Below are positions 7,050 to 35,760 of a DNA stretch of 64,000 nucleotides, in pieces (the stretch's first letter is position 1; each line of letters begins with the position of its first letter). The DNA comes from Candidatus Accumulibacter conexus (GTDB lineage: Bacteria; Pseudomonadota; Gammaproteobacteria; Burkholderiales; Rhodocyclaceae), in NCBI GenBank assembly GCA_017592775.1, contig JAGFNJ010000009.1, forward strand, positions 42,073 through 106,072, read 5' to 3'. A program made the position numbers and the translations under genes. The notes under the pieces were generated by a model. It was not told the origin of the DNA and did not search any database. It saw only the letters and a list, made by a program, of their open reading frames with translations.

Positions 7050-7236
7050 ACGTTTCCCGGCCCTGCCAGGTGCTCCAGGCCGGCAGTCGAACGTAGCTGC
7101 GCGAACAGCCCGCGTCGTCCGCTCACCTCCACGCGGGAAGGGGAACGGCTGTTGCAGCAGCGCCGTATCGCGCTCGCCCCGACCCGCGTGCGGACCCGCA
7201 GCGCCGCGAGCGCAGCGTGCCGGACGCCGGCGATCG

Positions 7237-7527
7237 TCAGAGCAGCGCATGCCCGAAGTCCTCGAGCGGCAGGCCGCGGCCGAGCGACAGCGCATCGTCG
7301 CGGTCCACCGGCGCCAGCACGTAGAACGCGACGCGGTCCTCGGCGGCGTCGATCGCCGCCGCCAGGCGCTGCCGCAGAAGGCGCCGCTCGCGCCCGTCGA
7401 GCCAGCCTTCGAAGACGCTCTCCTGCGCGCGGCAGGCAAAGGCCTCCAGCTCGCGGACGAAGCGCCGCCGCCGCCGCGAATCGGCGATGTCGAAGCAGAC
7501 GACGGTGAACGCGCTCGCGCCGCGCAT
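7237..7527 (-). CDS. cas2: CRISPR-associated Cas2, second copy (Cas2-B)
   Basis: A 96-residue Cas2. FTVVCFDIADSRRRRRFVRE gives the first beta strand with the conserved Asp (D13) and basic loop; AFYVLAPVDRDDALSLGRG is the later strand region. Cas2 dimers form the centre of the Cas1-Cas2 integrase. It is the last gene of the adaptation operon, and its ATG overlaps the stop of the first cas2 by one base (TGATG). The two Cas2 proteins differ over most of their length beyond the core QESVFE block, so they are not a recent tandem duplication. They could form a heterodimer. Confidence 0.85.
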   Translation of the reverse strand: MRGASAFTVVCFDIADSRRRRRFVRELEAFACRAQESVFEGWLDGRERRLLRQRLAAAIDAAEDRVAFYVLAPVDRDDALSLGRGLPLEDFGHALL

Positions 7528-7808
7528 CACGCCAGCCAGTAGTCGGACGGTCGCGCAGTCGCCGACTGCGCGCCGAGCGTCTCGCGCCGCGACGCAGTGC
7601 GCAGAGCCAGCGGATACGCGCGCACGGCGTCGGCCGCCGGCTCGATGACCGCCGCCACCTCGGCGAGCAGGGCGCGCAGCTCGGCGCCGCTCAGCCAGGC
7701 CTCGAAGACGCTCTCCTGCACGCGCTCGGCGCGCCGCCCGAGAACCCCCGCCAGCCGCCGCCGGCGGCGGTCGTCGGCGATGTCGTAGACGATCACCCAG
7801 AGACGCAT
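7527..7808 (-). CDS. cas2: CRISPR-associated Cas2, first copy (Cas2-A)
   Basis: A 93-residue Cas2: MRLWVIVYDIADDRRRRRLA has the conserved Asp9 at the end of the first beta strand, and QESVFEAWLSGAELRALLAE the helix that follows. It starts two bases after the RT-cas1 stop and ends in a one-base overlap with cas2-B, so all three are cotranslated. The C-terminus (ETLGAQSATARPSDYWLA) is longer and more polar than in Cas2-B. It is the likely structural partner of RT-Cas1; whether one or both Cas2 proteins are used cannot be told from sequence. Confidence 0.87.
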   Translation of the reverse strand: MRLWVIVYDIADDRRRRRLAGVLGRRAERVQESVFEAWLSGAELRALLAEVAAVIEPAADAVRAYPLALRTASRRETLGAQSATARPSDYWLA

Positions 7809-7810
7809 CG

Positions 7811-9889
7811 TCAGCGCACCATGAACGGGCGATAGGCCGGCGCCTCGCCGCGCAGAACCTCGATCCAGTGCGCCACCTGCGCCCGCATCGCCCGCCGGTA
7901 GTCGCCGTCGGGTCCGCCGAGCGGATGCCCGACGGCGCTCTGCAGCTTGGCTTCCAGCGCGGCGATGAAGGCCTTGCGCACCGGCAGCCCGATGCGGCAA
8001 CCGGCGTCCGCGCTGATGGCGAAATCGCCGTCGCCAATGTCGTCGCTGCCGAGCAGCCGCAGCACCACCGTGTCGACGACCAGCGCGCGGAACTCCTCCA
8101 TCAGGTCCGAGACCAGCGCCGGGTGGCCGTCGTGCGCCGCGTGCAGGCTGCCGAGATAGGGATCGAGCCCGCGCTCGGCGACCAGCGTCAGCAGGTTGTG
8201 GAAGAGCACCGCGTAGCCGTAGGAGAGCAGCGCGTTCACCGGGTCGCCCGGCGGCTGCCGGCGGCGACCCGGGAACGACCAGCGCGCCGGCAGCAGGCCG
8301 GCGAAGGCGGCGAAATAGGCGCGCGCCGCCGCCCCCTCGACGCCGCGCAGCGCATCGAGGTCGGCCGCGTGCAGCGCGTGCGCCTGCATCTCGTGCAGCG
8401 CCTCGTCGGCCGGCGACGCGCCGCCGGCGCGGAAGCGGTAATGCCGGCGCAGCAGCAGGCGGCCGTTGGCGATCTTGCCGGCGACGATGGCGCGCGCCGC
8501 GGCGAGGCAGAAAGCGGCATCCTCGCTGCGACGATACTGGCTGCGGCGCAGGTCGACGCGGCTGTCGGCGGCGCTCAGCAGCACCCCCGGCGGCGCGCTC
8601 GCCGTCCCCTGCAGCATGAAGGTCGCGCCACGCGCCAGCAGCGCCCGCAGCACGGCAAAGCTCACCGCGCCCTCATCGCTGGCGAGGATCTGGTCCACCT
8701 TCTCCAGCGGCACGCTGAGCAGCTCGTCGCCGTTCTTCAGCGCCAGCAGCCGGCCGCCGTCGATGCGCAGGTAGGTTCCCGGCTCGGCCAGGTAGAGCGT
8801 GCGCAGCAGTGGCGGCGGCGCGTCGTCGTGGCGCACGCCGCCACCCGGCGGCCGCGGCCGCGCGCGCGCGCCGTGCCCGGCGTGCCTCGCCGGTGCCGGT
8901 GCCGGCGCCGGCACCGGTTCCGGCAGCGACGCCGGCACTGCTTCCGCTGCCGCGCGCGGCAGCCCGGCCGCGGGCGGCCCGTCTGCAGCGCCGGCCGGTC
9001 GCAGGTGCGGCGGCAACAGCCAGGGCGTCGCCGCCGGATCCTCGGCACGCTGGCCGTGCGCATCGAAATGCACGCCGAGAAAACTCAGGCCATCGCGGAA
9101 AAGGACGATGCGCGTCGTGTCGAAATTGATCTCGAGGCCGGCGTCCGCCAGCCACTGCGCTGCCGCCTCGAGTGCCCGTTCGGCGCTGGCGACATCGCGG
9201 CAGGCGATGACGAAATCGTCGGCGTAGCGCACCAGGTGCCAGTCGGCGTCGGCGGCGATCGCCTCGTCGAAGCCGTCGAGATAGAGGTTCGCCAGCAGCG
9301 GTGACAGCGGCGAACCCTGCGCCACGCCCTGGCGGCAGCGCCTGTCGCCGTCGGCCGTGCGGATCGGCGCCGCCAGCCACTGCCGGACGAGCGGCAGGAC
9401 ACTGCCGTCGGGCAGCAGCGCCGCCAGCCGCGCGACGAGCTGGCGATGCGGGATGCGGTCGAAGAAGGCGCTGATGTCGGCGTGGACGACGCAGGGCAGG
9501 CCGGTGTCGCGCAGCTCGGCGACGCGGGCGACGGCATCGCGGACCGAGCGACCCGGGCGATAGGCGAAGCTCTCGTCCTCGAAATGGCGGTCGAGGATCG
9601 GCCCGAGGACCAGCCTCGCGGCCGTCTGCAGCACCCGATCGCCGACGGCCGGGACGGCCAGCAGCCGCGGCTCGCGCCCCGGCCGCGGCAGCTCGAGGCG
9701 CAACAGCGGTGCCGGCTGGTAGCGGCCATCGCGCACCTGGTCGCGCAGCCGGCCCAGTCGCAGCAGCGCGTTGCGCCCGAACTCGTCGAGGTCGATGCCA
9801 TCGACACCGGCGCCGCCGCCGTTGCGGCGCACCCGCGCCCAGGCGAGGGCCAGCGTGTCTTCGGCGAGGAGTTGGTCGAGGAGTGCCAT
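7811..9889 (-). CDS. cas1: Reverse transcriptase-Cas1 fusion
   Basis: A 692-residue fusion. Residues ~1-285 are a reverse transcriptase of the group II intron/retron-like class: motif A HADISAFFDRIPH (Asp138), motif B QGVAQGSPLSPLLANLY, and the catalytic YADD at 222-225. A Pro/Ala-rich linker (~290-360) leads to Cas1 (~361-692) with metal-ligand candidates Glu518 (VEGAAARAYF), His583 (GSLHAAHDG) and the Asp/Glu cluster SDLMEEFR near 595. No N-terminal Cas6 domain is present, and a separate cas6 exists. Known RT-Cas1 proteins acquire spacers from RNA. The start MALLDQLL is preferred; the 43 codons upstream are non-homologous filler. It heads the operon with two cas2 genes. Confidence 0.95.
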   Translation of the reverse strand: MALLDQLLAEDTLALAWARVRRNGGGAGVDGIDLDEFGRNALLRLGRLRDQVRDGRYQPAPLLRLELPRPGREPRLLAVPAVGDRVLQTAARLVLGPILDRHFEDESFAYRPGRSVRDAVARVAELRDTGLPCVVHADISAFFDRIPHRQLVARLAALLPDGSVLPLVRQWLAAPIRTADGDRRCRQGVAQGSPLSPLLANLYLDGFDEAIAADADWHLVRYADDFVIACRDVASAERALEAAAQWLADAGLEINFDTTRIVLFRDGLSFLGVHFDAHGQRAEDPAATPWLLPPHLRPAGAADGPPAAGLPRAAAEAVPASLPEPVPAPAPAPARHAGHGARARPRPPGGGVRHDDAPPPLLRTLYLAEPGTYLRIDGGRLLALKNGDELLSVPLEKVDQILASDEGAVSFAVLRALLARGATFMLQGTASAPPGVLLSAADSRVDLRRSQYRRSEDAAFCLAAARAIVAGKIANGRLLLRRHYRFRAGGASPADEALHEMQAHALHAADLDALRGVEGAAARAYFAAFAGLLPARWSFPGRRRQPPGDPVNALLSYGYAVLFHNLLTLVAERGLDPYLGSLHAAHDGHPALVSDLMEEFRALVVDTVVLRLLGSDDIGDGDFAISADAGCRIGLPVRKAFIAALEAKLQSAVGHPLGGPDGDYRRAMRAQVAHWIEVLRGEAPAYRPFMVR

Positions 9890-10761
9890 GGCGCGAGAGT
9901 CTGCCAGAGGCAGCGGCGGCGCGCACGAATGGCAAGCTTGCCATGTTGCCGGGCCGGCCGGGAGCGCGCGCGGAACGGCTGTGCAAGCTGCCGACGGAGC
10001 CGGGCGCTGCTGCCCCATCGTTGGCGCGGGTAGCGGGAAGGCGTCTGGCGGCTCGTGAAGCCCGTGGCGCCGGCCTGGATTCTTCGGAGAGTCGATGAGA
10101 GAAGGGATCGGCGATCGGCCCCGCGAAATGCCGTACCGCTCTGGAGCCCAACGAACGAGGTCAGCCGCCCGGGCGTCAGTGAGGGGCGGCTGCGATGCCT
10201 CGTTGGGCTGCGGACCTTCGGCAGGTCGTGGCGTGAGAAGTGGCGCCTGTCCGCGCCGAAAGCAACGGGGCCAAGCGCCAGCGTATGCGCGGCAGATGAA
10301 CCCGGTTGGACTGAAGCGCCTCGAGGGTGGTACTCGTGGGGATCGTCAGCCTCCGGCGCCCCGGGCCAAGCCACGGGCACGGGTCACAGCGGTTGGCCGG
10401 GTTGGCCAGCGGTGGGCGAGCGGCTTGCTGCCGTTCGTGAGAGGGTGCCAGGAAGGAACAGGGCCCTCGGGAAAACGGAAAGGACGTCGGAATGGCCATT
10501 TCGGCGCGCTGCCGACGAGGCTTCCGCTCACGACCGCAACTGCCATTGGGTACACGGGAACCTCCCGCGCGAAGCGCCGGCCGTCTTCATGGGCCGCCGG
10601 GAACCGATGCGTTCTGCGGCGTCGGCTGACGCCGACGCGGAGCCCCCTCCTTCGGCACCAGCCCTCCGCGGTCGCGGTGGAGACGGCACGCCCACTCCTC
10701 GCGGCCGACGCTGCTCGTGGAGAGCGAACTGGAGATTTTCCCACTGAGATACATCACTCTC
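9890..10761. other. Non-coding region between RT-cas1 and the array, probable leader
   Basis: About 870 bases with no supportable gene. It should hold the divergent promoters of RT-cas1 (leftward) and of the array (rightward), because the repeat's hairpin and 3' tag point to rightward crRNA transcription. The 30 bases just before the first repeat (GGAGATTTTCCCACTGAGAT and on) are the most AT-rich part. Bases 10249-10400 recur inverted at 6410-6550. A long inverted repeat lies at 10145-10209. Confidence 0.5.
10145..10209. repeat. Long imperfect hairpin, attC-like ends
   Basis: AGCCCAACG (10145-10153) pairs with CGTTGGGCT (10201-10209), AGG with CCT inside it, and AGCCGCCC (10163-10170) with GGGCGGCT (10184-10191), leaving an asymmetric bulge and a small loop. 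The ends match the attC core pattern RYYYAAC ... GTTRRRY. No integron integrase is in the window, so this may equally be an ordinary structured leader element or a REP-like hairpin. Confidence 0.4.
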
Positions 10762-12715
10762 GTCTTGATCCCCTTCAGGAATTCGGGGAGAGAGAACGAA
10801 TTGACGCATCAAGCCAGCAACATTGTTACGTCTTAATCCCCTTCAGGAATTCGGGGAGAGAGAACCGGGGACTGCTGCTTCAGCACGAACGCGCTGAGTC
10901 TTAATCCCCTTCAGGAATTCGGGGAGAGAGAACACATTGCTTGTCTCGGAATGTCTTGGTCGACAAGTCTTAATCCCCTTCAGGAATTCGGGGAGAGAGA
11001 ACACCAAGCAAGCACCTTACCAGATTCGGAGTAAGTCTTAATCCCCTTCAGGAATTCGGGGAGAGAGAACGCAATTCATGGTGGATAAAGCAATCGCTAA
11101 CAGTCTTAATCCCCTTCAGGAATTCGGGGAGAGAGAACTCCGATCGTCCGCTGCAAGGACTTGGCTCGTGGGTCTTAATCCCCTTCAGGAATTCGGGGAG
11201 AGAGAACCAATGCCAGCGACGAAAAGACCATCGACCAGTTGTCTTAATCCCCTTCAGGAATTCGGGGAGAGAGAACTAATCAGTGAAGAACAGAAAGCGC
11301 GGTACATTCGTCTTAATCCCCTTCAGGAATTCGGGGAGAGAGAACAAAACAGAGCGTTTGCAGGGAGAAACACACGTGTCTTAATCCCCTTCAGGAATTC
11401 GGGGAGAGAGAACGGAATCTTTCCACAGCGTTTAGCTGGATGTTTGTCTTAATCCCCTTCAGGAATTCGGGGAGAGAGAACCGCGACTACAATCCCAGTA
11501 CCGGCCGCCGCGAGTCTTAATCCCCTTCAGGAATTCGGGGAGAGAGAACGACATTCTGGCCAGAGCCGGAAAGACATTACCGTCTTAATCCCCTTCAGGA
11601 ATTCGGGGAGAGAGAACACAATGATAGATCCTTGTGGATTTTTGAAACAGTCTTAATCCCCTTCAGGAATTCGGGGAGAGAGAACGATCATCCCGATGAC
11701 CACCGCCATCATCACGATGTCTTAATCCCCTTCAGGAATTCGGGGAGAGAGAACCTCTGAAAGAAGTTGATACGTGGAAAGCATATCGTCTTAATCCCCT
11801 TCAGGAATTCGGGGAGAGAGAACACACATAGCCCGAGTGGTGGAATTTGGCATACACGTCTTAATCCCCTTCAGGAATTCGGGGAGAGAGAACATCAAGA
11901 TGCCTTCGTTGAGTTTGAAAAAAGATCGTCTTAATCCCCTTCAGGAATTCGGGGAGAGAGAACCGATCAACGGGGATGATGGCCCAGCGCGGCTGAGTCT
12001 TAATCCCCTTCAGGAATTCGGGGAGAGAGAACTGAATGTCAGCCCCCATCCGAAGTGCGGCTTTGGTCTTAATCCCCTTCAGGAATTCGGGGAGAGAGAA
12101 CGCTGTACCGGATTTACCGCTACTGGGGCAACAGTCTTAATCCCCTTCAGGAATTCGGGGAGAGAGAACGCAGGGCAGCAGCGGGCCGGGCGACTTGAAC
12201 TGTCTTAATCCCCTTCAGGAATTCGGGGAGAGAGAACCGCAACTCGCCACCGCCAGTCTGATCACGCAAGTCTTAATCCCCTTCAGGAATTCGGGGAGAG
12301 AGAACACCTTTCTGCCGTAGGAGAGCAGCATCCTATTGTCTTAATCCCCTTCAGGAATTCGGGGAGAGAGAACAAGACTAAAAGCGGTTCTGCGTGACGA
12401 GCTGGGTCTTAATCCCCTTCAGGAATTCGGGGAGAGAGAACGGTTGCCGCCAGGATCAAGGCGGAGATTTCGCGTCTTAATCCCCTTCAGGAATTCGGGG
12501 AGAGAGAACTTGTAGCACCTGTTACTACTATAACCGGAGCGGTCTTAATCCCCTTCAGGAATTCGGGGAGAGAGAACAAGTCAAACAGGGACTGTTGGTG
12601 GACACTGACGAGTCTTAATCCCCTTCAGGAATTCGGGGAGAGAGAACCCAGTTGAACCAGTCTAGCACCGCAGAGATCCGTCTTAATCCCCTTCAGGAAT
12701 TCGGGGAGAGAGAAC
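10762..12715 (+). CRISPR. CRISPR array, 29 repeats / 28 spacers (type III-B)
   Basis: I count 29 copies of a 36-base repeat beginning GTCTTAATCCCC and ending GGGGAGAGAGAAC, with spacers of about 32-34 bases and a period of about 68.5. Inside each repeat CCCC and GGGG form a short stem around a loop containing the palindrome GAATTC. The last eight bases, GAGAGAAC, resemble the ACGAGAAC tag of S. epidermidis type III-A crRNA, so crRNA is probably read rightward. Only the first repeat differs (G for A at its sixth base, 10767); all others look identical, a sign of an active or young array. All spacers look different from each other. Apparent reading frames through the array are artefacts of the repeats. 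Confidence 0.98.
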
Positions 12716-13610
12716 TCTAACGCTGGAAGGCCTCTTGTGGCAAGGGTTTGCGGGGCACGAATCGGCGGGCGGCAGCCGGTCAGGCCAATGGCATCATGGC
12801 GATGGGGCAAGAATGGCGCTTTCCTCATGGCAATCAGGGCGCTGCGCGTAGTGCTGCCGCCCTCGTCGGTCCCGTCGCAGGGGACAACGGCAAGATCGCG
12901 GGAAACAGCGGCACGGGATCGCCGTTGGTGCGGCTGCAGTGCAGGCGACCGCTTCTGGTGGCGCAGTGAGCAGCGACGCCAAGCGACGGTTGCCGTCGCC
13001 GCGGCGCCGCACGTGCTGCCGCGTCGTTGCCGCTTTGCGCTGCGTGCGGCGACGACCGTTGCTCCCCTCGCGACGGCCGACGACGCTGGCCGTCCATCGG
13101 GGTCGGCGTGTCCGAGCGGGAGCGCGACACCTGGCGCGCGCGCGCTTTCATGCGCCACGCCCGTCATTCCATGTTGCGGGTGGATGGGTCCATGCTCCGG
13201 ATCGACGACTCCATGTTCGGGATCGATCACTCCATGCTCCGGACGGGTCGTTCCATGCGACGAGTTCAACGTTCCAACCGGCCGGTTGATCGCTCGATCG
13301 CTTCGGTAGAAGCGAGCATCTCGAAGGTCCATCGCCTGCACCTGCATCGTTCGTGCCTGTGCTGCCGCGACGGAACGTTCGACACCGCGCATCGACAGGC
13401 GCACCCGGGCGATGCAACCTGCCATCCGCTTCAGGCAGGCCCGCAGCGGCAGGGTCCATGCTTGCGTCGCGCGCCGAGCCCCGACGGGCCGCTGAGCAGG
13501 AGAGGTGGGTGCCGGTGCATCGCTGCACCGGCCGTGACCATGCGCGCCGGGCGCGCTCCGGCCGGTCGCCCGGGCAGGGCGCGGCGAGTGCCCGGGCTGT
13601 GCCGATCGCT
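12716..13610. other. Region right of the array, no confident gene
   Basis: Nearly 900 bases without a supportable gene. Several overlapping frames are open on both strands because of high GC. The only internal structure I see is the 21-base tandem repeat at 13168-13293. It separates the array's trailer end from the small gene at 13611-14078. Confidence 0.5.
13168..13293 (+). repeat. 21-base tandem repeat, ~6 degenerate units
   Basis: Units starting at 13168, 13189, 13210, 13231, 13252 and 13273 share TCCATG(C/T)TCCGGATCGA-type sequence; the first five start TCCATG. Because the unit is 21 bases, the plus-strand frame reads as a heptad series (SMLRVDG, SMLRIDD, SMFGIDH, SMLRTGR, SMRRVQR, SNRPVDR) that fades into SIASVEA and SISKVHR. 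It could be the remains of a coiled-coil gene or a non-coding minisatellite. No convincing start, ribosome site or flanking domain was found. Confidence 0.7.
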
Positions 13611-14078
13611 TCACGGGGTGGGCGCAGCCTTCCTGGTCTTGCGCGCGAAACGGCGGCCGAGGTCGTCGAGGCTGCCCTCGAGCGCGCCGGTCGAGAGGTT
13701 ATGCAGCTTGGCATACTGGTAGACGAGCAGCGCGGCGGCGTAGGCTTCGCTGCCGGCGGCAAAGTAGGTGTCATCGAGCTTGCGGAAGACGGTTTCGAGT
13801 CGGTGACGCACCGGGTAGAGGTCTTCGACGAGAGCGACATCGGCGGCAAATTCCGGCAGGCTGAAGCCGCTCGGCAGGATTTCGGGATGGGCTTCGGCGA
13901 TGGCGAGCGCCTTGACGACGAAGGAACGGTTCATTTCTCCGAACTTCACCATCGCCGTCCGTTCGCCGTCGGCGAGGTCGATCAGGAAGGGGAGGGCGTC
14001 GGTGAGGGCGGTCAGCGCGGCTTGCGCCCTGGCGTGCTGGTCGGGAGTGATGGCGGCGTCGATGCGGTTTGCAGGCAT
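13611..14078 (-). CDS. Conserved-looking hypothetical helical protein
   Basis: A 155-residue, probably all-helical soluble protein (MPANRIDAAITPDQHARAQA at the start; KLDDTYFAAGSEAYAAALLV later; Lys/Arg-rich C-terminus). AGGAGA six bases before the ATG is a good ribosome site. It lies on the same strand 148 bases downstream of the crn2 gene, between the interference operon and the array, and may be the operon's last gene. No catalytic motif is visible. Similar small proteins occur outside CRISPR loci as far as I recall, so linkage to CRISPR is only positional. Confidence 0.7.
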   Translation of the reverse strand: MPANRIDAAITPDQHARAQAALTALTDALPFLIDLADGERTAMVKFGEMNRSFVVKALAIAEAHPEILPSGFSLPEFAADVALVEDLYPVRHRLETVFRKLDDTYFAAGSEAYAAALLVYQYAKLHNLSTGALEGSLDDLGRRFARKTRKAAPTP

Positions 14079-14226
14079 GGCAGGTCTCCTTGATCGGTCG
14101 GGCGCGAAGACGTTTCGCGCCGTGTGGAATTAGAAGGGATTTCCGGCGCAGCGGTCAAGGCCGCGCGGCGGCAGCCACCGCCGCTGCCGTGGTTGCCGCT
14201 GCCGGCTGCGGCGGCGCCGCCGGCGG

Positions 14227-14544
14227 TCATGCCAGCCGCTCGAGCCAGGCCAGCTCATGCGGGACGGCGGCGATTTCGGCGTCGGCGAGCAGTTGGCCCT
14301 CCGCCAGGCGCGTGCGGATGCGCAGGACCAGCGCCTCGTCGCCCGCTTCCATGGCGATCTCGACGCGCCGCGCCGCGACGGCGACGCCGAGCAGCGCCGA
14401 CAGCAGGCGCGCGCTGGCGTCGTGGCCGATCGCCGAGACGAAGCCGCCGGCCAGCCGCCGCCGCGCCTCGGCGGCGTCGAGCGGGCCGCTGAAGCGATAG
14501 TCGCCGTAGGCGGTCAGCACCGGTGTGTTGAGCAGGTAGATCAT
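14227..14544 (-). CDS. crn2: Crn2 / DUF1874 (AcrIII-1-like) ring nuclease
   Basis: A 105-residue DUF1874 protein. Compared with the viral ring nuclease AcrIII-1 (SIRV1 gp29, recalled from memory) the conserved segments line up at a constant offset: [16 protein letters not shown] against SIGHDSTIQLINSLCG, and TRLAEGQLL against QRLEEGKIL. The catalytic His47 corresponds to His41, and Arg85/Glu88 to Arg79/Glu82. The family degrades cyclic tetra-adenylate; host-encoded members are called Crn2. The ATG overlaps the stop of the membrane CARF gene (ATGA), placing it at the end of the type III-B operon as an off-switch. This implies that the system signals through cA4. Confidence 0.88.
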
Positions 14545-15383: not shown

Positions 15384-16153
15384 TCGCTGCCGCCAGCAAA
15401 GCGGCCGTAGCCCGAACTGCGCTTGCCGCCGATGCCGTGCTGCTGCAGGCCTTCCTCGAGCAGGCGGCGGGCGAGGCGGGTCCATAGCGGTTGGCCTTCG
15501 ATGACGAAATGGAAGCTGCCGCGAACGGCGATCTGCGGTGCCGGTATCGGCGAGTCGAAATCGGTCGCCGGATCGCGCCCTTCATTGCCGTAGTACGCCC
15601 TGTGGTGCACGGTGACCACTTCGGCGACGAAGGGTTTCTCCCCGCGCTCGGGCACCCACCAGGCGTCGTGGAAGATCAGGCCGCCCATTTCGGCGGTCGT
15701 TTCCTCTTCGCCGGGGTCGTTGCCGAACAACCAGCGGCGCGCTTCAGGATTGTCCAGCCATCTGCCGGCGCTGGCCCGGCAGAGCCCCTTGACCGCCGAG
15801 CCGGGGATCAACGGCATGCCGTAGGTGTGCGAGACGGTGACGCCGGTTTCGAGCGCGTTGTCGCGGACGACACCGATGTACAGCCGGCCGGCCAGCGGCA
15901 GGCGGAAGGCGGCGAAGCGCTGCGCGTCGGCAGTCGTTCTCTGCCAACGTTCGAACGCCAGCCGGTAGAAGTCGGGAACGCCGAGTTCGGCGATGGCCCG
16001 GATGTGCCCGGCCTTGATCTCGCCGGCCTTGTCGCCATCCGGAAAACTCGCCAGCCCCTTGGCGAGCAGCAGGCCGCAGTGCGGTTGGGCGCGCCTCAGT
16101 GCAGAGAAGCCATGGTCAAGCAGCCGGCTGATTGCGCTACGGCAGAGCGTCAT
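15380..16153 (-). CDS. cmr6: Type III-B Cmr6
   Basis: A 257-residue RAMP subunit at the foot of the Cmr backbone. Diagnostic pieces are [20 protein letters not shown] (the RAMP 'GsalKG' loop), [21 protein letters not shown] and the C-terminal glycine-rich [16 protein letters not shown]. It caps the Cmr4/Cmr5 filament and contacts the crRNA 3' part. The ATG at 16153 overlaps the cmr5 stop (ATGA), which rejects the longer upstream frame. Confidence 0.93.
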
Positions 16154-16548: not shown

Positions 16549-16558
16549 GGCATCCTCC

Positions 16559-26860: not shown

Positions 26861-26863
26861 GTC

Positions 26864-29410
26864 TCATTCCTTTCCGCAAACGATGAATGCCGCCCAGAAC
26901 CACGGTGCCGCGTACGGACGGTGGTCCGCGGCGTCCTTGCGCAACGCGCTGCGCGTGGCGGCGGCGAGCGGGCCGGCCGGCGGTGGCAGCTCCTTCGCCT
27001 CGCGCAGCAGCGCCATCAGCTCGCCGACCGTCACCGTCCGCAGCCAGCGCTGCGCGTCGCGCAACGCGCATGCCGGCGACTTCGCGCCACCGGCCATTTC
27101 GCGGTAGAAGCGGCCGACGAGGAAGGCCGACGCGACGTCGTCCACCGGCCAGAGCGAGGCGAGGACGCTCTGCGTGCCGGCGTGCAGGAAGGCGGCGGGA
27201 AATCCGAGCGACTCGTCGGGGGTCGAGGCGACGCGCGCCATCGCCGTCTCGCAGGCCGACAGGGCGAGCAGCGCCGGCGGCCGGCCGGCGAGCGCGGGCA
27301 GCAGCGCTTCGATCGTCAGCCGCTCGCCGCCGGCGAGGAAGACGCACGACTGCAGCGGGCGCTCGAGGTCGAAACGCGCGTGCGTCGCCAGATGCAGGAT
27401 GTCGACGCGGCCGAGCGCGGCGACGACCGCCGCCGGCGTCGCCTCGTCGTTGCAGAGGAGCGTGGCCGGCGTGGCGAGCGCCTGCTGCACCCAGGCACAC
27501 TCGACGGCGGCGAAGGGCAGGTCGCGCAGCGGATCGGCGACCAGCAACGCCTGCGCGGCACCTGCGCTCGCCGGGCGTGCCGCGAGCAGGGCGCCGATCG
27601 ACGGCGCGTAGCGGATCACATGCGCGTCGAGCAGCCAGCGCCGCTCGCCGTGATCGTCGGCGCACCACGCCGCGTGCAGCGGAAAGACGCTGCTGCCGCC
27701 CTGGTGCAACCACACGAGGTCGCCGTCGGCGGCGACGCCGAGCGCCGGCAGCCGTTGCAGAAGCGGCCGCCAGATCTCATCGTAGAGGACGCGGCCGGTA
27801 TCGTCGATCATCTGCCGCCACGCCGCTGCCTGCGAATGCTGCTGGTGGTACGCGAGCAGCCAGCCGCCGAGCGCCGCCGCGCTGGCTTCACCGCGCTGCT
27901 GTTGCAGCAGTCGTCGGCGCCCGAAGTGCGGCAGCCACACCGTCTCGTTGCCGCTCGCGGCGACGATGGTGACGGCGCCGGGCTCGGCGGCGAAGTTGGC
28001 GCAGAGCAGCGCCCCGCCGGCGGGAACCAGGCTGGCGAGATCGGCGGTGGTCCATTCGCGTTGATCGGTCCGCCAGAAGAGGGCCTTGCCGCGATCGAGT
28101 TCGAGCAGCGCTTCGCCGGTGCGCCCGAGCTGCAGCAGGCAGTGGGCGAGCAGGGCGGCGGAATCGCGGAACTCCCAGATCCGCTCCATGCGCCCGGCGA
28201 CGCTGCTCGCCGCGGCGAGCGCGGTCGTCGCGTCGGCCAGCGCGGCGCGCAGCGTCGTCGCAGCCTGCTCGTAACGCCCCGCCAGCAGCAGGCCGTCGGC
28301 GATCACCTGGCGCACGACGCGACGGTCGCGCAACGCCTCCGGCGCCGACAACAGTGCCAGCGCGGCATGGCCGTGCGCCAGCAGCGGCTCGACCTGCGCC
28401 AGGTCGCCGGCAGCGATGCACTCGAGGCAGATGTCGGTATGGAAGGTCTCGACCGTCGCCAGCAGCGCCGGACTGAGCGCCGGGTCGATCAGCCGCGCCG
28501 CCTCGTCGCAGAGCGCCCGCGCCTCGGCCAGCTCCGCCTCGTCGCTGCGACCGGGCCGCACGAGCACGCGCGCCAGCGCCAGCAGCGCCTCGGCCCGCAG
28601 GCGCCAGTCGTCGACCGACCGGCACGCCGCCAGCGCATCGCGGGCGTAGCTCTCGGCCGCGACGAGGTTTGCCGCCGCGTCACCCGGGCAGCGGAAGCGG
28701 TAACACTCGCTGAGCGCGAGGCGAGTCTCGATGCCCGCGCCCGCGGCAGCGGTCGGCAACGCGGCGAGCACCTGCGCATGCCGGGCGAGCCGTCGTTCGA
28801 GCGCGGCGCTGAAGTCGGCGTCGGGCTCCTCCTGGTACGCGACCGCGAGCGCGTTCATCGCCGTGGCCCAGCGGGCCGGTTCGGCGCTGCGATCGATCAG
28901 CGCCGCGTCCTGCTCGAGGTAGGCGACCCGCTGGCGCCAGTTGTCGCAGGGATCGCCCAGCGTGTGGAACTGATACAGCCGTGCCAGCACCGCCGCGAGA
29001 TACGGACGCTCGCCGACGGCGCATTCGAGGTGCTCGATCGCCTCCTGCTGCTGCGCCGGCGTCAGCGGCGCCTGCCGCGCCAGCAGCCAGCCGATGCCCT
29101 CGTGGCACGCCAGCCAGCTCTCGCGGTCGCTGTGCGGGTCCCAGACGTCGAGCGCGTCGCGGTAGGCCGCGGTGGCGGCCGGCGGGTCGACCTCTTCCGC
29201 CAGGGAAGCGTAGCGGCTGCGAAACGCCGCCCAGCGGCGCGGCTCTGCGACCCGATCGAGCAACTGTGCGCCCTCGGCCAAGAGCCCGCGCGCCCGCTCC
29301 GCGTCGCGCTGCACGTTGAGCGCCGCCAGTTCGGCAAGCAGCGACTGCAGCCGCCGTTGACGATCCTCCTCGTCGCTCGTCACGCCAACCGCTGCCGCGC
29401 CATCACCCAT
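26864..29410 (-). CDS. TPR-CHAT caspase-like protease
   Basis: An 848-residue protein. Residues ~20-440 are TPR-like helical repeats rich in Ala/Leu. Residues ~460-848 are a CHAT (caspase-HetF-associated) protease with the dyad His677 in ILHLATHARFD and Cys720 in LLALSACETAM. The tail SLGFPAAFLHAGTQSVLASL then WPVDDVASAFLVGRFY is a family hallmark. TPR-CHAT proteases act with type III-E effectors, and SAVED-CHAT with some type III-B systems; this one has no CARF or SAVED domain. It is on the cas strand, with the DUF900 gene three bases downstream. Fragments of its 5' end recur at 35.3-35.76 kb. Start MGDGAAAV at 29410. Confidence 0.88.
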   Translation of the reverse strand: MGDGAAAVGVTSDEEDRQRRLQSLLAELAALNVQRDAERARGLLAEGAQLLDRVAEPRRWAAFRSRYASLAEEVDPPAATAAYRDALDVWDPHSDRESWLACHEGIGWLLARQAPLTPAQQQEAIEHLECAVGERPYLAAVLARLYQFHTLGDPCDNWRQRVAYLEQDAALIDRSAEPARWATAMNALAVAYQEEPDADFSAALERRLARHAQVLAALPTAAAGAGIETRLALSECYRFRCPGDAAANLVAAESYARDALAACRSVDDWRLRAEALLALARVLVRPGRSDEAELAEARALCDEAARLIDPALSPALLATVETFHTDICLECIAAGDLAQVEPLLAHGHAALALLSAPEALRDRRVVRQVIADGLLLAGRYEQAATTLRAALADATTALAAASSVAGRMERIWEFRDSAALLAHCLLQLGRTGEALLELDRGKALFWRTDQREWTTADLASLVPAGGALLCANFAAEPGAVTIVAASGNETVWLPHFGRRRLLQQQRGEASAAALGGWLLAYHQQHSQAAAWRQMIDDTGRVLYDEIWRPLLQRLPALGVAADGDLVWLHQGGSSVFPLHAAWCADDHGERRWLLDAHVIRYAPSIGALLAARPASAGAAQALLVADPLRDLPFAAVECAWVQQALATPATLLCNDEATPAAVVAALGRVDILHLATHARFDLERPLQSCVFLAGGERLTIEALLPALAGRPPALLALSACETAMARVASTPDESLGFPAAFLHAGTQSVLASLWPVDDVASAFLVGRFYREMAGGAKSPACALRDAQRWLRTVTVGELMALLREAKELPPPAGPLAAATRSALRKDAADHRPYAAPWFWAAFIVCGKE

Positions 29411-29912
29411 GTCCTGCCCGCCCCGACAAACAGCGACTCGACCCGGCCGGAAAAAAGGGCGGGCGACGCTGCATGCAGCATAGGCAATGCGGCTGCCGCA
29501 GCGCAAGTATCCCGTTGCCGCGTGCCGGGATTTGCTCGTCGGCTGGTGTCGCTCGCCGCGCCGAGCCGCCAGGTGCGCCGGATCGCACGCCGTCGATCAT
29601 CTGCTTGCCGCTGCTGCCCCGGCATGGTTACACTGACGCCGTGCAGCGCGACCTGCATGACCACGAGCGAAGATTTCCCAACCCCCTCACCACTGCGCGT
29701 TCATCAGGAACCATGTGTGACAACCGGAAATGCAGCGGATCGCCATCGCCGGATCATCGTCGAGCGCACCGCCGGACTGAATGAAGCCGACTGCTGAACC
29801 GCAACTCGCCACGAATTGGCCAGCTCTGCCGGCGGCGCGGCTCAAGGCGCAGCCTTCGGCTGCCAGGACGTTGGGCCAGCGGGTCGCTCCCGTGATGGCG
29901 GGTTAGGCGGCA
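29411..29912. other. CHAT upstream region, 502 bases without a firm gene
   Basis: Bases 29411-29700 recur at 35450-35745, including GCCCCGACAAACAGCGACTC and GGCATGGTTACACTGACGC. In the first copy a small plus-strand frame from ATG 29713 (23 codons) follows the conserved part and has no recognisable homology, so a gene once there may be broken. The region should contain the leftward CHAT promoter and perhaps a rightward one. Confidence 0.5.
29605..29634 (+). promoter_or_regulatory. Candidate rightward promoter, copy 1
   Basis: TTGCCG (29605-29610), 18 bases, TACACT (29629-29634): four of six matches to each sigma-70 box. The same arrangement is kept base for base at 35656-35685 although the surroundings diverge, which favours function. 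Confidence 0.35.
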
Positions 29913-30362
29913 ATGGAATCGCTGAACCTGGGCTTCCGTTTCTTCGTCGTCGGCGACGACAACTCGATCAGCAGGATATCGCAGCGCTCCTATACCGATT
30001 TCTACATGAAGCGCAAGCCGTCGCTGCAGCGCTTTGCCGGTTCGACGATCAACGTCGCGACAGTGATCTACACGCTGGAAAACCGAAAGCCGAAGCAGAT
30101 CGTCCGAATCGACCATGTTCGCGTCCGCGTCGACAGCGAAGGTGCGCCCGATCAGGCGCAGAAGGACGAGAATCTTCGCCTCATTGCCAATCACGTCGGG
30201 AAACTTCTTGGCGACGAAGAGCCGGTCGAGACCGCGGGCAATGTCGTCAGCGCGGTGCGCCAGTTCGACGAACGGCATTGGGCACAACTCCACCCGCAAT
30301 TGCCGGGTCCCGCGCTCAAACGGATACTGGAGATCCTGTTCGGTGGCCAGCAGGCTGTCTGA
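29913..30362 (+). CDS. Hypothetical protein
   Basis: A 149-residue soluble protein, slightly basic, with alternating strands and helices (NLGFRFFVVGDDNSISRISQ, then STINVATVIYTLENRKPKQI, RIDHVRVRVDSEG). The composition is less alanine-biased than its neighbours, consistent with a genuine gene. The ATG at 29913 has only a weak purine tract before it (AGGCGG). No family is recognised. It lies at the left edge of the plus-strand mosaic next to the CHAT gene's upstream region. Confidence 0.6.
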   Translation: MESLNLGFRFFVVGDDNSISRISQRSYTDFYMKRKPSLQRFAGSTINVATVIYTLENRKPKQIVRIDHVRVRVDSEGAPDQAQKDENLRLIANHVGKLLGDEEPVETAGNVVSAVRQFDERHWAQLHPQLPGPALKRILEILFGGQQAV

Positions 30363-30468
30363 CGCTGTGGTCATCCGGACGCGCGTTCGGGTTGGCTTTG
30401 CTCCGCGCTGCGCGCTCCGGTTGTCGGATGCCCCCGCGTTGGAGCGCGAAGCGACGGGATGCAGCCGG

Positions 30469-30522
30469 CGATGTCGGAGACGATCACCCGCAGACGGTTC
30501 TGCAACTCCCCATGAACGCTCG
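30469..30522 (-). pseudogene. Fragment of Cas2-A start and RT-cas1 end
   Basis: The stretch GATGTCGGAGACGATCACCC and the following CCATGAACG match 7784-7830. On the minus strand it reads VHGELQNRLRVIVSDIAG against VHGALTMRLWVIVYDIAD. It is a short relic of the cas1/cas2 junction, here on the right flank of the CRISPR-CHAT block. Otherwise 30363-30622 holds no gene that I can support. Confidence 0.6.
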
Positions 30523-30622
30523 CTGAGTCGGCGCCGCGCCCGCAGCACAGTGGTCGCGTGCGCCACCAGCGCAGCTCGCATCGAGAGGCGGATAGCTTGT
30601 TTGTCCTCATCCTGGAGTGCCG

Positions 30623-31321
30623 ATGAAAGCCCATGTCTTGCAGCACGTTTCCTTTGAGGGACTGGGAAGCATCGATGCGTGGCTCAAGTCACGCGGTGCA
30701 GCCGTCAGCACGACCCAGTTCTTCGAATCCACCCGACTGCCGGCTGTGGCCGACTTCGATCTGCTCATTGCCCTCGGCGGACCGATGAGCGTCAACGACG
30801 AGGACGCTTTGCCATGGCTCCGGGACGAGAAGCGACTGGTCCGGGAGGCCGTTCAGCGCGGCAAGAGCGTGCTTGGCATCTGCCTCGGCGCACAACTGAT
30901 TGCCTCCGCCCTCGGGGCCCGCGTTTATCCCGGAACGAACAAGGAAATCGGCTGGTTCCCCATCTACGCGATTGACGCCAACCCTGAAGACGACCGTTTC
31001 GCCTTTCCCGACAGGACGGATGTGTTTCACTGGCATGGCGAAACCTTCGACCTGCCAGACGGCGCCGTACACCTGGCGCGCAGCGCAGGGTGCTTGCATC
31101 AGGCTTTCCAGATCGGCAGCAGCACCATGGGCCTGCAGTTCCACCTCGAGACCACGCCCGCGAGCGCTGCTGCCCTCATCGCCCACTGCCAGGACGAGTT
31201 GGTTGCGGATCGCTACATTCAGAGCGAAGAACGCTTGCGGGCAGTCGCAGCCAACCGGTACGATGGCATCAATGTGCTGATGGCCTCCGTACTCGATTAC
31301 CTCACACGCGATGTATCCTGA
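30623..31321 (+). CDS. Class I glutamine amidotransferase-like protein
   Basis: A 232-residue class I amidotransferase. The nucleophile Cys87 sits in VLGICLGAQLIASALG, and the dyad His174/Glu176 in MGLQFHLETTP; DLLIALGGPMSVND is the expected oxyanion-strand block. Free-standing proteins of this type are usually annotated as GMP synthase-like, and remove amide nitrogen from glutamine or gamma-glutamyl compounds. GGAG at 30614-30617 sets the ATG at 30623 rather than the GTG at 30617. The true substrate is unknown. Confidence 0.88.
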   Translation: MKAHVLQHVSFEGLGSIDAWLKSRGAAVSTTQFFESTRLPAVADFDLLIALGGPMSVNDEDALPWLRDEKRLVREAVQRGKSVLGICLGAQLIASALGARVYPGTNKEIGWFPIYAIDANPEDDRFAFPDRTDVFHWHGETFDLPDGAVHLARSAGCLHQAFQIGSSTMGLQFHLETTPASAAALIAHCQDELVADRYIQSEERLRAVAANRYDGINVLMASVLDYLTRDVS

Positions 31322-31482
31322 CCGCGAGCGACTGATGTGCAGCGATATGCGTCCGGTCCCTGATGCGGTTCGCTTCGCGCACTCGATTCCACGACCAGCC
31401 ACAGGCTGCCTGCCATTGCGTGCAGCGTCGCTCGCCTGGCCGGCGGCCACGGAACGTTTTCAACGCGAGATCGGAGGACGAT

Positions 31483-32247
31483 ATGCAGATCAAGGCGACA
31501 CTGGTTGATGCGGTCCGGAACAGGCAGGCGGTCCTTTTCGCTGGCGCGGGCATTTCATGGCAAGCGATCGGTTTCGGCGGTCTGCACATCCGCGACCAAC
31601 TGGGCATGCAGATCGAGCGGGATTATCCCGGGTACGACTATCGCAGCCGTTCCGTTGAAGAGGTCTGTGACGAGTACCTGGTGCTGAACGACCGGATCGC
31701 CTTGGTCGATCGCCTGGCGGCGCTCATCCCTCAGGACAGGATTCCTCAGCCGAGCCATGTCGCAGCCGTCAAGTCGTTTCGCTTCATCGTCACCACGAAT
31801 TGGGATCTTCTGTTCGAGTCGGCCTATCGACAGATCAACCAGCATTACCAGGTGCTCTCGCAAGACGCGGATGCACCCATGTTCAGCTACGACCAGCACA
31901 ACCTGCTGAAGATACACGGATCGGCCGATCGTCCCGTTTCTCTCGTCGCCACCACGGAGGATTACGAGAACTACGCGGAAACACATGCAAGACTCCTGGA
32001 CAAGGTCGCTGACCTCCTGCAGAACAATACGGTGCTCTTTGTCGGCTACGGCCTGCGCGATGAGCATGTCCGGCGCTTGCTCTCGCAGATTCGCCGACAG
32101 CGTCAGCAATGGACACGCAAGGCGTTCGCCGTCGGTTTCTTCGATGAGGTCAGAACGAAGCTGCTGGCCAGTCGGCAGATTGAAGTGATCGATGCCGACG
32201 CGGACGAATTTCTCGTCGAACTGATGAAACAGGCCGGCATCTGCTGA
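31483..32247 (+). CDS. SIR2-like (SIR2_2) protein
   Basis: A 254-residue sirtuin-fold protein of the SIR2_2 group. AVLFAGAGISW (residues 16-26) is the NAD-binding GAGxS, FIVTTNWDLLFE (101-112) the second NAD motif, LLKIHGSAD (141-149) the catalytic His145, and VLFVGYGLRDEHVRRLL the closing motif. It lacks zinc-finger cysteines. SIR2_2 domains in bacteria are frequent NAD-depleting effectors of anti-phage systems (ThsA, DSR, SIR2-HerA), but stand-alone members also occur. CGGAGGA five bases before the ATG sets the start. No partner NTPase or Argonaute is adjacent. Confidence 0.88.
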   Translation: MQIKATLVDAVRNRQAVLFAGAGISWQAIGFGGLHIRDQLGMQIERDYPGYDYRSRSVEEVCDEYLVLNDRIALVDRLAALIPQDRIPQPSHVAAVKSFRFIVTTNWDLLFESAYRQINQHYQVLSQDADAPMFSYDQHNLLKIHGSADRPVSLVATTEDYENYAETHARLLDKVADLLQNNTVLFVGYGLRDEHVRRLLSQIRRQRQQWTRKAFAVGFFDEVRTKLLASRQIEVIDADADEFLVELMKQAGIC

Positions 32248-32340
32248 CGAAAGAGCGAGCATGGCTGACCAACGACGCTGCCTCGCCCCGCCGCTGCAGA
32301 CAGGCATCGGGCTGCCGTCCGGATCGTCGGCAACCTCACC

Positions 32341-32916
32341 ATGAAAGGGCGAGAGAGCGGAATGCCGGCCGAGGACTACTGGGCGAGCTTCTTCGACCCG
32401 GATGTCACGATGGATCTCCTCGCTGGTGCAACTGGTGTGCCGGGAAATGTCATCGAGTTCGGCTGCGGCTATGGCACCTTCACGATACCAGTCGCGCGAC
32501 GTACGTCGGGTCTCGTGACGGCTCTGGATATCGAACCGGAAATGGTGGAGATCGTCCGCCGCAAGGCAGAAGGCTTTGCTCTGGGCAACATCCGGGCCGA
32601 GGTGCGCAACTTCGTCGAAAACGGAACGGGTGTCGCGGACCGGTCACAGGCACATGCCATGATCTTCAACCTGCTGCATCTCGAACAGCCTGTGGCATTG
32701 CTGCACGCAGCCTACCGCAGCTTGCAGCATCGCGGCGTGCTGTCGGTGATCCACTGGCGCAGTGACATCGAGACCCCGCGCGGTCCGTCGCTGGCGATTC
32801 GCCCGACGCCCGAGCAATGCCGGGCGTGGATGGTCGCGGCCGGATTCCGTGCCATTGAATCCGTTGATCTGCAAATTTGCTGTCCATTTCATTTCGGCCT
32901 GATCGCCAGGCGTTGA
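32341..32916 (+). CDS. SAM-dependent methyltransferase (class I)
   Basis: A 191-residue methyltransferase: NVIEFGCGYGTFTIPVAR is the SAM-binding motif I, ALDIEPEMVEIVRRKAEG motif II, and NLLHLEQPVALLHAAYRSLQ the usual post-motif region. Start may be 32341 or the ATG at 32362 (MPAEDYWASFF), which has a purine run in front. It lies 24 bases before the DsrE gene. A small-molecule substrate is likely; nothing more can be said. Confidence 0.85.
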   Translation: MKGRESGMPAEDYWASFFDPDVTMDLLAGATGVPGNVIEFGCGYGTFTIPVARRTSGLVTALDIEPEMVEIVRRKAEGFALGNIRAEVRNFVENGTGVADRSQAHAMIFNLLHLEQPVALLHAAYRSLQHRGVLSVIHWRSDIETPRGPSLAIRPTPEQCRAWMVAAGFRAIESVDLQICCPFHFGLIARR

Positions 32917-34568: not shown

Positions 34569-34765
34569 TCGGTCGACTCATGACCCAGATCCTGGCATTC
34601 TCCAGGCAGATTAAGTCACGGGCTCGCGTCGTCGGCGAGCGCCCGGACGATGCCTTGTCCAGGTCATTGGCGCTTTCCAGCCTGGCGACCTTGCTGTTTC
34701 GCCAGCCGGACTCGCCGTCCGTCGACCGCGGGTGAACGCCAACGTCGGAGCACGTCGAATACCCC

Positions 34766-35215
34766 ATGCACACTTACCCGCTCGTCTTCTTCTTGCACGT
34801 GCTCGCCGCCACAGTGTGGACCGGGGGGCATCTGGTGCTCGCCTTCACGGTGCTTCCGCGTGCGCTGCGTGCGCGCGATCCGGAAGTTCTGCTCGCTTTC
34901 GAATCCGGCTTCGAACGCATCGGCATGCCCGCCCTGCTGGTGCAAGTGGTCAGTGGCCTCTGGCTCGCGCACACGCTGGTGCCAGACGTGGCCGCCTGGT
35001 TCACTGCGTCCAACCCGCCCGCCCGGCTGATCGCATGCAAGCTCGCACTCCTGGCGATCACCGTCCTCACTGCCCTGGACGCGCGCCTCCGGATCATTCC
35101 TCGGCTGAGCGCACAAACGCTTCCGGCCCTGGCCCACAGGGTCTACCTGGTGACGCTGGTTTCCGTCCTGTTCGTCCTCGTCGGGGTGTCGTTTCGTGGC
35201 GGGCTGCTGGCGTGA
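34766..35215 (+). CDS. CopD-like integral membrane protein
   Basis: A 149-residue membrane protein with four predicted helices. The first holds His10 in VFFLHVLAATVWTGGHLVLA, the conserved heme- or copper-type His-x-W-GGH pattern of CopD/DUF2269-type proteins; then GMPALLVQVVSGLWLAHTL, RLIACKLALLAITVLTALD and RVYLVTLVSVLFVLVGVSF. Probably involved in copper or redox handling at the membrane. The start ATG at 34766 is upstream of the family's usual beginning by few residues. The 197 bases before it contain no gene. Confidence 0.82.
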   Translation: MHTYPLVFFLHVLAATVWTGGHLVLAFTVLPRALRARDPEVLLAFESGFERIGMPALLVQVVSGLWLAHTLVPDVAAWFTASNPPARLIACKLALLAITVLTALDARLRIIPRLSAQTLPALAHRVYLVTLVSVLFVLVGVSFRGGLLA

Positions 35216-35218
35216 CGC

Positions 35219-35760
35219 CGCCGTGCGGTCCGGAAGGCGATCGTCAGAGCAGCGCGTGCCGGAAGTCGTCGATCGGCAGTCCGCGACCCGTCGTCAGCCT
35301 CACCTCGTCGTCGTCGAGGACGCGGCCGGTATCGTCGATCATCTGCCGCCACGCTGCCAGCGCATCGCGGGTGTAACCCTCAGCCGCGGCGAGGTTGTCG
35401 GCCGCGGGCGATCCTCCGCGTCGCTCGTCACGCCAACCGCTGCCGCTGCATCGGCCATGTCCTGACCGCCCCGACAAACAGCGACTCGACCCGGGCCGGA
35501 AAGGGTGGGCGGCCAAGCATCCAGCATAGGTGCTGCGGCCGCCGCAGCGCAAGTAGCCCATTGCCGCGCGCGGGGGATTTTCTCTTCGGAACGTGTCGCT
35601 CGTTTCGGCCGGCAGCCAGGCGAGCCTGATCGATCGGCACCAATCGACTGCAGTCTTGCCGCTGCTGCCGCGGCATGGTTACACTGACGCGGTGCAACGC
35701 GGCTTGCAACAGCACGACCGAAGAACTCCCGATCCACCCAAGCACTGCGAGTTGACCAGA
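35219..35760 (-). pseudogene. Collapsed copy of the CRISPR-CHAT block
   Basis: Read on the minus strand from 35760 leftward, this stretch matches in order: the CHAT upstream region (equivalent to 29700-29411), the CHAT N-terminus (AAAAVGVTSDAEDR), an internal TPR piece (NLAAAEGYTRDALAA against NLVAAESYARDALAA, 28.65 kb), a later piece (AWRQMIDDTGRVL, 27.8 kb), and finally the Cas2-B tail (GRGLPIDDFRHALL against GRGLPLEDFGHALL, 7.24 kb). The left border GGCGATCGTCAGAGCAGCGC equals 7229-7248. The order and orientation are those of the intact 22-kb block with everything between deleted. The reading frame changes between pieces, so nothing here is functional as protein. Confidence 0.85.
35656..35685 (+). 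promoter_or_regulatory. Candidate rightward promoter, copy 2
   Basis: TTGCCG (35656-35661), 18 bases, TACACT (35680-35685), identical in layout to the site at 29605-29634. It points at the small gene starting at 35762, 76 bases on. Confidence 0.35.

Follow-up and report, generated by a model that had tools for sequence, protein, structure and literature searches.

The window analyzed here is a stretch of 64,000 nucleotides from Candidatus Accumulibacter conexus (contig JAGFNJ010000009.1, positions 42,073 to 106,072). It contains a type III-B CRISPR-Cas locus with two Cas2 genes and a fusion of reverse transcriptase and Cas1 (RT-Cas1), a gene pair for a DUF900 hydrolase and a TPR-CHAT protease, and, further to the right, a small relic (35236-36124) with pieces of Cas2 and CHAT. 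The relic is probably the remnant of a second, right-hand RT-Cas1/type III-B block, in an island that once held more than one such block and two cassettes consisting of DUF900, CHAT, and a third gene, ORF120.

The relic has a size of about 0.9 kb and adjoins the CRISPR locus. It was analyzed by local alignment (BLAST) of positions 35000-36000 with the whole window and of the relic with the source genome (4.87 Mb, 102 contigs). Four pieces were found in one order and on one strand (plus to plus), next to an intact small gene. They are listed together with the counterpart of that gene at the intact CHAT gene and with the right flank. The relatives, designated by G numbers, belong to the genus Candidatus Accumulibacter, and their architectures are given in the orientation of the window.

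35236-35288, minus strand: piece 1, Cas2-B 3' tail and about 8 downstream bases (BLAST to 7229-7281, 89%; 47 of 53 identical)
35308-35357, minus strand: piece 2, internal CHAT (BLAST to 27777-27826, 94%; 47 of 50 identical)
35346-35406, minus strand: piece 3, internal CHAT (BLAST to 28619-28679, 84%; 51 of 61 identical)
35401-35762, minus strand: piece 4, CHAT 5' end and CHAT/ORF120 intergenic region (BLAST to 29353-29710, 79%)
35762-36124, plus strand: ORF120, intact gene for 120 amino acids, arranged divergently to CHAT, third member of the cassette (homologues beside CHAT in G014 and G027)
29692-29729, plus strand: residual 3' end of ORF120, next to the intact CHAT gene (80% to 36093-36133; aligned with G014 and G027)
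36197-37439, plus strand: DUF4325/HATPase gene (Pfam), right flank of the relic, common to G016, from 36306 to G014, and from 36769 to G027

Against the whole own genome, the E-values of pieces 1-4 were 2.6e-12, 9.4e-15, 3.1e-11, and 3.2e-82. The relic matched itself, the four known places, and one 31-base stretch elsewhere, and the other window matches of 35000-36000 were weak (E 0.015 or more). Chance similarity was ruled out by the E-values and by the collinearity, as all four pieces share one strand and one order. Pieces 2 and 3 overlap across a 12-base imperfect repeat with one mismatch, which is a deletion junction. Microhomology as a general cause of the deletions was rejected, as ten junctions from relatives, judged on the window sequence, share 0-4 bases. 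A first-pass annotation of the window had described the relic as starting with the exact Cas2-B tail and ending with the 5' flank of CHAT. The relic and its ordered, same-strand pieces, including the two internal CHAT pieces, proved to be real; the tail is not exact, with 6 mismatches in 53 bases, and the right end was placed wrongly.

The same annotation had taken both ends of the relic for the outer edges of the whole block. This was supported for the left end: the homology stops about 10 bases past the Cas2-B stop codon in the main copy of the window, the relic, G014, and G016, and near there in G027. On the right, a unit edge near 29700 had to be rejected. Positions 35401-36117 of the relic align to the CHAT flank of G014 (78%) and G027 (75%), spanning ORF120, and only about the last 26 bases of ORF120 are retained at the intact CHAT gene of the window (within 29692-29729). 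Because the homology of the relic to G014 and G027 runs on to 36117, the border near 29700 was produced by a deletion that affects the reference copy itself. This calls for caution, as agreement between the edges of a relic and those of a reference copy can simulate the borders of a block if the reference copy itself carries a deletion. Other homology edges also lie at or near stop codons (3144 in the left flank, 25470-25506 at the cassette), and therefore such edges by themselves provide weak evidence of a mobile unit.

The ORF120 protein is 85% and 77% identical to the products of the CHAT-adjoining genes of G014 and G027, respectively, and the pairwise ratios of nonsynonymous to synonymous divergence (dN/dS) are 0.17-0.27. 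No match was obtained with Pfam, PADLOC, or NCBIfam. The structure model had a predicted local distance difference test score of 72, and its best PDB match (E 1.0) was uninformative. A 55% relative is encoded at locus L083 (G004:C119, 9207-9566) beside a gene that, by eye, resembles Ser/Thr kinase genes; no CHAT match was found on that contig.

The same chromosomal site was compared among the relatives. Its right flank (37696-39900) was matched in 27 of 28 genomes of the genus, with a long match in 25. The two flanks are 46 base pairs (bp) apart in G020 and 88 bp apart in G025, and thus the site is empty in these genomes. In G014, the left flank is followed by DUF900-CHAT-ORF120, a spacer, a Cas2/Cas1 relic, and then Cas2-B, Cas2-A, and RT-Cas1; the spacer to the right of this left-hand cassette matches window positions 29692-29900, 30937-32541, and 29819-30383. 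The right part of G014 follows after a contig break within cas1 and comprises the array, Cmr genes, CARF genes, the 3' part of DUF900, a piece with the DUF900 start and the CHAT end, and the right flank from 36306. The right-hand DUF900 and CHAT of G014 are thus broken. Its Cas10, Cmr3, Cmr5, Cmr6, Csx16 frame, Csx1, and CARF5 are 89-97% identical to those of the window and free of stops, Cmr4 (95%) contains a single stop codon, located at residue 102 of the open frame and N-terminal to the Cmr4 domain (150-430), and Cmr1 is open where matched and only 45% identical.

The other relatives had retained different parts. G016 contains the left flank, a 3' piece of DUF900, 3 kb, Cas2-B, Cas2-A, and a Cas1 tail, which is joined (window position 8018 to 23929) to the start of Csx1, followed by CARF, pieces of DUF900 and CHAT in the same order and strand as in the window, and the right flank from 36197. 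G027 contains the left flank, an intact DUF900-CHAT-ORF120 cassette, 2 kb, Cas2-B/Cas2-A/Cas1-tail, 6.6 kb, and the right flank from 36769. At a contig end of G024, Cas2-A is joined to CARF (7807 to 24113), followed by 800 bp and the right flank. The order cassette-spacer-Cas2 with common sequence was found in G014, G016, and G027, and in these three a separate left edge of the cassette lies shortly after the DUF900 stop. The deletion junctions differ between G014 and G016. Because counterparts at the same position still carry cas genes, wholly in G014 and partly in G016, the relic has lost cas genes, as the first-pass annotation had proposed. Its expectation of the same block with the same two borders in relatives was partly borne out: G014 and G016 have a Cas2-to-CARF block and then broken DUF900 and CHAT genes beside the same right flank, and the border at 29700 was not recovered. 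The sister remnants and the empty sites, like the pieces of the relic, their order, and their positions, are directly seen.

These remnants suggest that two blocks once coexisted next to each other and recombined. The region of about 4.8-37.7 kb fills the chromosomal site at which G020 and G025 have no insert. We hypothesized that the ancestor of a small clade (the window, G014, G016, and G027) had more than one RT-Cas1/type III-B block and two DUF900-CHAT-ORF120 cassettes, one beside the left flank and the other after the right-hand CRISPR block. Recombination between the repeats and repeated short-junction deletions would then have produced a different remnant in each genome. The window would have kept a complete left-hand block, with its right side joined to the spacer that is found to the right of the left-hand cassette in G014. 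The Cas2-B tail, the three CHAT pieces, and the intact ORF120 at 35236-36124 would be the leftover of the right-hand block.

The Cas2-B sequences bear on the origin of the relic. The main copy of the window, the relic at 5.3 kb of the window, and the G014 relic form one group (88-93% alike), and the G014 main copy, G016, and G027 form a second group (92-95% alike). Between the groups the identities are 80-84%, with values of 84-90% for pairs with G027, in which only 89-134 bp overlap. The Cas2-B tail of the relic at 35.2 kb (51 bp) is 94.1% identical to each of G014 main, G016, and G027, compared with 88.2% to the window main copy (51 bp) and 84.8% to the G014 relic (46 bp). On these few bases, the relic probably represents a resident second block rather than a copy of the block of the window itself.

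Several observations weigh against this assignment and against the scenario of two blocks. The Cas2 tail comprises only 51 bp, and the difference is one of 3 versus 6 mismatches. G027 is 90% identical to the window main Cas2-B over 134 bp, so that the groups are not cleanly separated. From Cas2-A on, the identity of the window to G014 is 91-100% in bins of 75 bases; because of this near-identity, the Cas2 groups are confined to Cas2-B, and the blocks have recombined. The CARF5 distances lack the split into two groups. The CHAT 5' region of the window (29.35-29.71 kb) is closer to the left-hand copies of G027 (86%) and G014 (83%) than to its own relic (81%), the relic being a decayed gene. The edges at stop codons may merely reflect fast change of intergenic DNA, and the order of genes in G014 was read across the contig break inside cas1.

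The similarity of the window to G014 varies along the island. The nucleotide identity is 93-95% from Cas2 to Cas10 (array aside), 92% at 21.8-25.8 kb, and 83-86% in the flanks. The synonymous divergence (dS) is 0.10 for Cas10, 0.11 for CARF5, and 0.16 for Csx1, compared with 0.23 for CHAT and 0.27 for DUF900 of the left-hand copy of G014; this contrast compares non-equivalent copies, because the right-hand cassette of G014 is broken. Judged from these values, the last movement or recombination of the CRISPR core is more recent than that of the cassette used in the comparison. It is conceivable, and among the alternatives the one to be taken most seriously, that the window acquired its complete block from a relative by horizontal transfer, with recombination into the left-hand cassette at a time when the resident right-hand block was already decayed. 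Such an import would account for the higher identity of the region from Cas2 to Cas10 than of the flanks and for the lower dS of Cas10 than of CHAT, and also for the position of the window CHAT-DUF900 pair, which has CARF on its left, like right-hand blocks, and the spacer of the G014 left-hand cassette on its right. However, a donor with the same chimeric joint was not found. An identity of 94% is also seen for the DUF4325 gene (36.3-37.4 kb), and thus the exchanged tract may be the whole island. Cmr1, with 45% identity between the window and G014 amid neighbours with 90-97%, also does not fit, and because of this value the Cmr operon itself is a mosaic. The arrays of the window and of G014 (C44) have the same 36-base repeat, and 0 spacers are shared (28 x 52 compared), which is neutral for the import.

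Within the cassette, the window is closest to right-hand copies at 26.59-26.93 and 29.14-29.36 kb and, at 25.5-25.8 kb, to the G016 copy on the left-hand side. These mosaic identities, as well as the chimeric context of the window cassette, could have been generated by unequal crossing-over between the two cassettes; the spacer and the CRISPR block would have been duplicated, and the outer copies would have been lost. This within-genome special case of the favoured explanation seems rather unlikely, as it needs several unseen intermediates, and a single clean crossover point in the cassette was not found in the identity profile.

The first-pass annotation had proposed that the 22-kb block of the window was duplicated as a unit and that the second copy collapsed, which would make CHAT and DUF900 part of the CRISPR system. 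The collinear pieces of the relic and the cas genes present between Cas2 and CHAT at this position in G014 and G016 would be expected from such an event. Nevertheless, we regard it as improbable: the relic Cas2 tail is closer to the right-hand blocks of other genomes (94% versus 88%, 51 bp), the true right edge lies past ORF120, and the cassette also exists without cmr genes. The Cas2-tail affinities and the mosaic identities favour an older second resident block instead. It is highly improbable that the relic stems from a small locus with Cas2 beside CHAT that never had cmr genes; the relic holds only Cas2 and CHAT pieces and ORF120, and Cas2 remnants are scattered at 5.3, 30.5, and 35.2 kb, but this origin was already disfavoured by the Cmr genes of G014, and by the Cas1 tail, Csx1 start, and CARF between Cas2 and CHAT of G016, at the same position.

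By its gene content (Cas10/Cmr2, Cmr1, Cmr3-Cmr6, array, RT-Cas1, and Cas2), the window locus is a type III-B CRISPR-Cas system. Its features are:

7237-7527, minus strand: Cas2-B (PADLOC Cas2 match at residues 177-255 of frame 7237-8037)
7527-7808, minus strand: Cas2-A (assigned by likeness to Cas2-B, 7341-7431 versus 7635-7724, 77%)
7811-10018, minus strand: RT-Cas1 fusion (Pfam Cas1 and RVT_1)
10762-12715, strand not assigned: CRISPR array, 29 repeats of 36 bases
14227-22093, minus strand: type III-B effector operon with Csx16 domain, Cmr6, Cmr5, Cmr4, Cmr3, Cas10/Cmr2, Cmr1 (PADLOC, Pfam)
22928-24121, minus strand: Csx1-type CARF-HEPN (PADLOC 5e-151; TIGR02221)
24118-25341, minus strand: CARF protein, NE0113 family (Pfam 1.5e-44; PADLOC CARF5; TIGR02584)
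25526-26860, minus strand: DUF900 alpha/beta hydrolase (Pfam DUF900 5.6e-40; AHSMG motif)
26864-29410, minus strand: TPR-CHAT protease, 848 amino acids from the likely ATG (Pfam CHAT 5.3e-53 on the 880-residue frame; longest frame to 29506)

The DUF900 start codon lies 3 bases after the CHAT stop. Downstream of DUF900, the same-strand order is NE0113-type CARF, Csx1-type CARF-HEPN, Cmr1, Cas10, Cmr3, Cmr4, Cmr5, Cmr6, and Csx16 domain, and then the array, RT-Cas1, and the two Cas2 genes follow. The CARF/Cmr operon is thus headed by the CHAT/DUF900 pair, which may be expressed together with it. CARF families sense cyclic nucleotides. Cas10 (18588-20429) has no HD dipeptide and has GGED where GGDD, presumably the cyclase motif, would stand; cyclase activity is not readable from the sequence. 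Cmr1 (20426-22093), compared with the 89-97% identity of its operon neighbours to G014 (C44), looks like a swapped subunit.

The co-duplication had been taken to tie CHAT and DUF900 to CRISPR. This inference was not supported by the relatives, in which the cassette has its own left edge: DUF900-CHAT stands alone beside the left flank in G014 and G027, and in pieces in G016. In G027, DUF900, CHAT, and ORF120 are all open. None of the 3 Cas10-palm matches of this 93% complete genome passed the family cut-off, a lenient one that is passed by E. coli, and the window Cas10 as query found nothing in G027. The intact cassette thus also occurs in a genome without a passing Cas10 match. Conversely, G021 encodes a Cas10 that is 63% identical to that of the window, together with Cmr1, Cmr3-6, RT-Cas1, and Cas2, at another site, and no DUF900 or CHAT match was found in this genome. 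The III-B locus of G021 (C100, near 213-224 kb) adjoins homologues of window 52.8-63.7 kb. In favour of a tie, the window and G014, both with a close Cas10 at the site, also hold an intact CHAT, and G016 has lost both.

More distant DUF900 loci were also inspected (10 of 14 fetched, five of them within about 1 kb of a contig end). A CHAT gene is near DUF900 in 3 of the 10 (G003, G008, and G034), with identities to the window of 33-35% for DUF900 and 28-39% for CHAT, and at none of the 10 was a match to six window cas proteins found at 1e-4. The CHAT genes at L072 (G003:C89, 490-3678) and L074 (G034:C3, 11591-14650) adjoin DUF900, and their first residues, unlike those of the window CHAT, look by eye like secretion signals. 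A match to the window Cas10 at 1e-20 was found in only 2 of 369 genomes of the class, that of the window and the distant G465, and therefore wider statistics of Cas10-CHAT co-occurrence were not possible. A search of the open-licence literature returned no paper that links CHAT, type III CRISPR, and Accumulibacter, or DUF900, CHAT, and defense, or Accumulibacter, CRISPR, reverse transcriptase, and Cas1. Taken together, these comparisons do not support a functional tie of CHAT/DUF900 to CRISPR and suggest that the protease cassette is semi-independent within a recombining island of CRISPR blocks.

The two proteins are under constraint, as the pairwise dN/dS is 0.27-0.31 for CHAT and 0.16-0.27 for DUF900. 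CHAT His677 and Cys720, which we take to be the His-Cys dyad of a CHAT caspase-like protease, are invariant in three genomes. With Pfam at E 1e-3, CHAT and a weak TPR match were found in the CHAT protein and nothing further, and in the DUF900 protein no domain beyond DUF900. The structure model of CHAT contains a TPR solenoid; the TPR arm is modelled well and the CHAT domain poorly. Matches to the CHAT protein, mostly to the protease domain only, occurred in 34 of the 101 genomes searched (window included). Full-length CHAT was confined to 3 of the 101 (the window genome, G014, and G027; 87% to the latter two), with a fragment in G016, and none was found outside the genus in these searches of 101 relatives. 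A contig scan, which finds close relatives only, yielded five CHAT loci, two of them full-length. In G014, DUF900 is interrupted by a stop 19 residues ahead of its end.

The caspase-like CHAT protease with its TPR arm and the DUF900 hydrolase, encoded in one operon, may form a protein-degrading or cell-damaging arm, which in the window sits ahead of the CARF/Cmr operon and would not need CARF or Cmr. The TPR arm might sense a partner or signal and switch on the protease, and the hydrolase could be a co-effector or a substrate. A further step, which we regard as unlikely, would be that the cassette of DUF900 hydrolase, TPR-CHAT, and ORF120 constitutes an independent defence module, which works as a plug-in protease arm beside III-B, and that entire CRISPR blocks are exchanged at one chromosomal site with the repeated cassette copies as recombination handles.

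The locus resembles RT-Cas1 type III-B loci in having the RT-Cas1 fusion, Cas2, array, Cmr1-6 including Cas10/Cmr2, Csx1, and a CARF gene, and differs in that it has two Cas2 genes, that the operon is preceded by a DUF900-CHAT pair, and that the adaptation end also occurs in several decayed copies. Like Csx29 of type III-E (Craspase), the window CHAT has a TPR arm followed by a CHAT domain, and Csx29 was its best PDB sequence match (4.9e-5). However, its score of 34.6 bits is far below the cut-off of 300 of NCBIfam NF041237, and thus it is not Csx29. The locus also differs from type III-E in having separate Cmr1, 3, 4, 5, 6, and Cas10 genes, as named by PADLOC in a search that was not aimed at gRAMP/Cas7-11, and in the DUF900 hydrolase as the partner of CHAT. 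The PADLOC model BovA weakly matched the CHAT domain (6.2e-6 and 1.3e-4, 23 and 19 bits), but the match is confined to some 70-100 of the 880 residues. Pfam includes a model for SAVED, and no SAVED domain was found in the window CHAT at E 1e-3. This distinguishes it from SAVED-CHAT effectors, with which it shares the presence of a CHAT protease gene at a type III locus; SAVED-CHAT has been described as rare among type III loci, with a count of three (PMC11229360).

Membership of genes in CRISPR systems is mostly claimed from neighbourhood. The five genomes (window, G014, G016, G024, and G027) represent one locus that decays with different parts kept, and they allow co-travel to be separated from co-survival. 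The stretch illustrates well how a defence island can repeatedly decay and recombine. It also offers a testable case, a CHAT-hydrolase pair whose intact copy in G027 suggests that it may defend in the absence of Cas10.

Two further relics of the adaptation end are present in the island:

5307-5644, minus strand: second Cas2/Cas1-tail relic, left of the block (93% to 7276-7467, 91% to 7714-7882)
30466-30572, minus strand: third relic, Cas2-A/Cas1 tail, right of CHAT (76% to 7775-7882)

With piece 1 (35236-35288) included, the island thus contains at least three decayed copies of the adaptation end. According to a previous study, RT-Cas1 is a horizontally spreading module, and the scattered Cas2/Cas1 remnants agree with this (PMC5513706). 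A stretch beside the Cas2 relics that includes the end of a PhdYefM antitoxin gene (5151-5312) occurs a second time at 6183-6344 (94%). A SIR2-domain protein with PADLOC likeness to the ThsA and PDC-S25 models is encoded at 31363-32247, and this SIR2 stretch (30937-32541) is kept at 92% in G014, beside the left-hand cassette.

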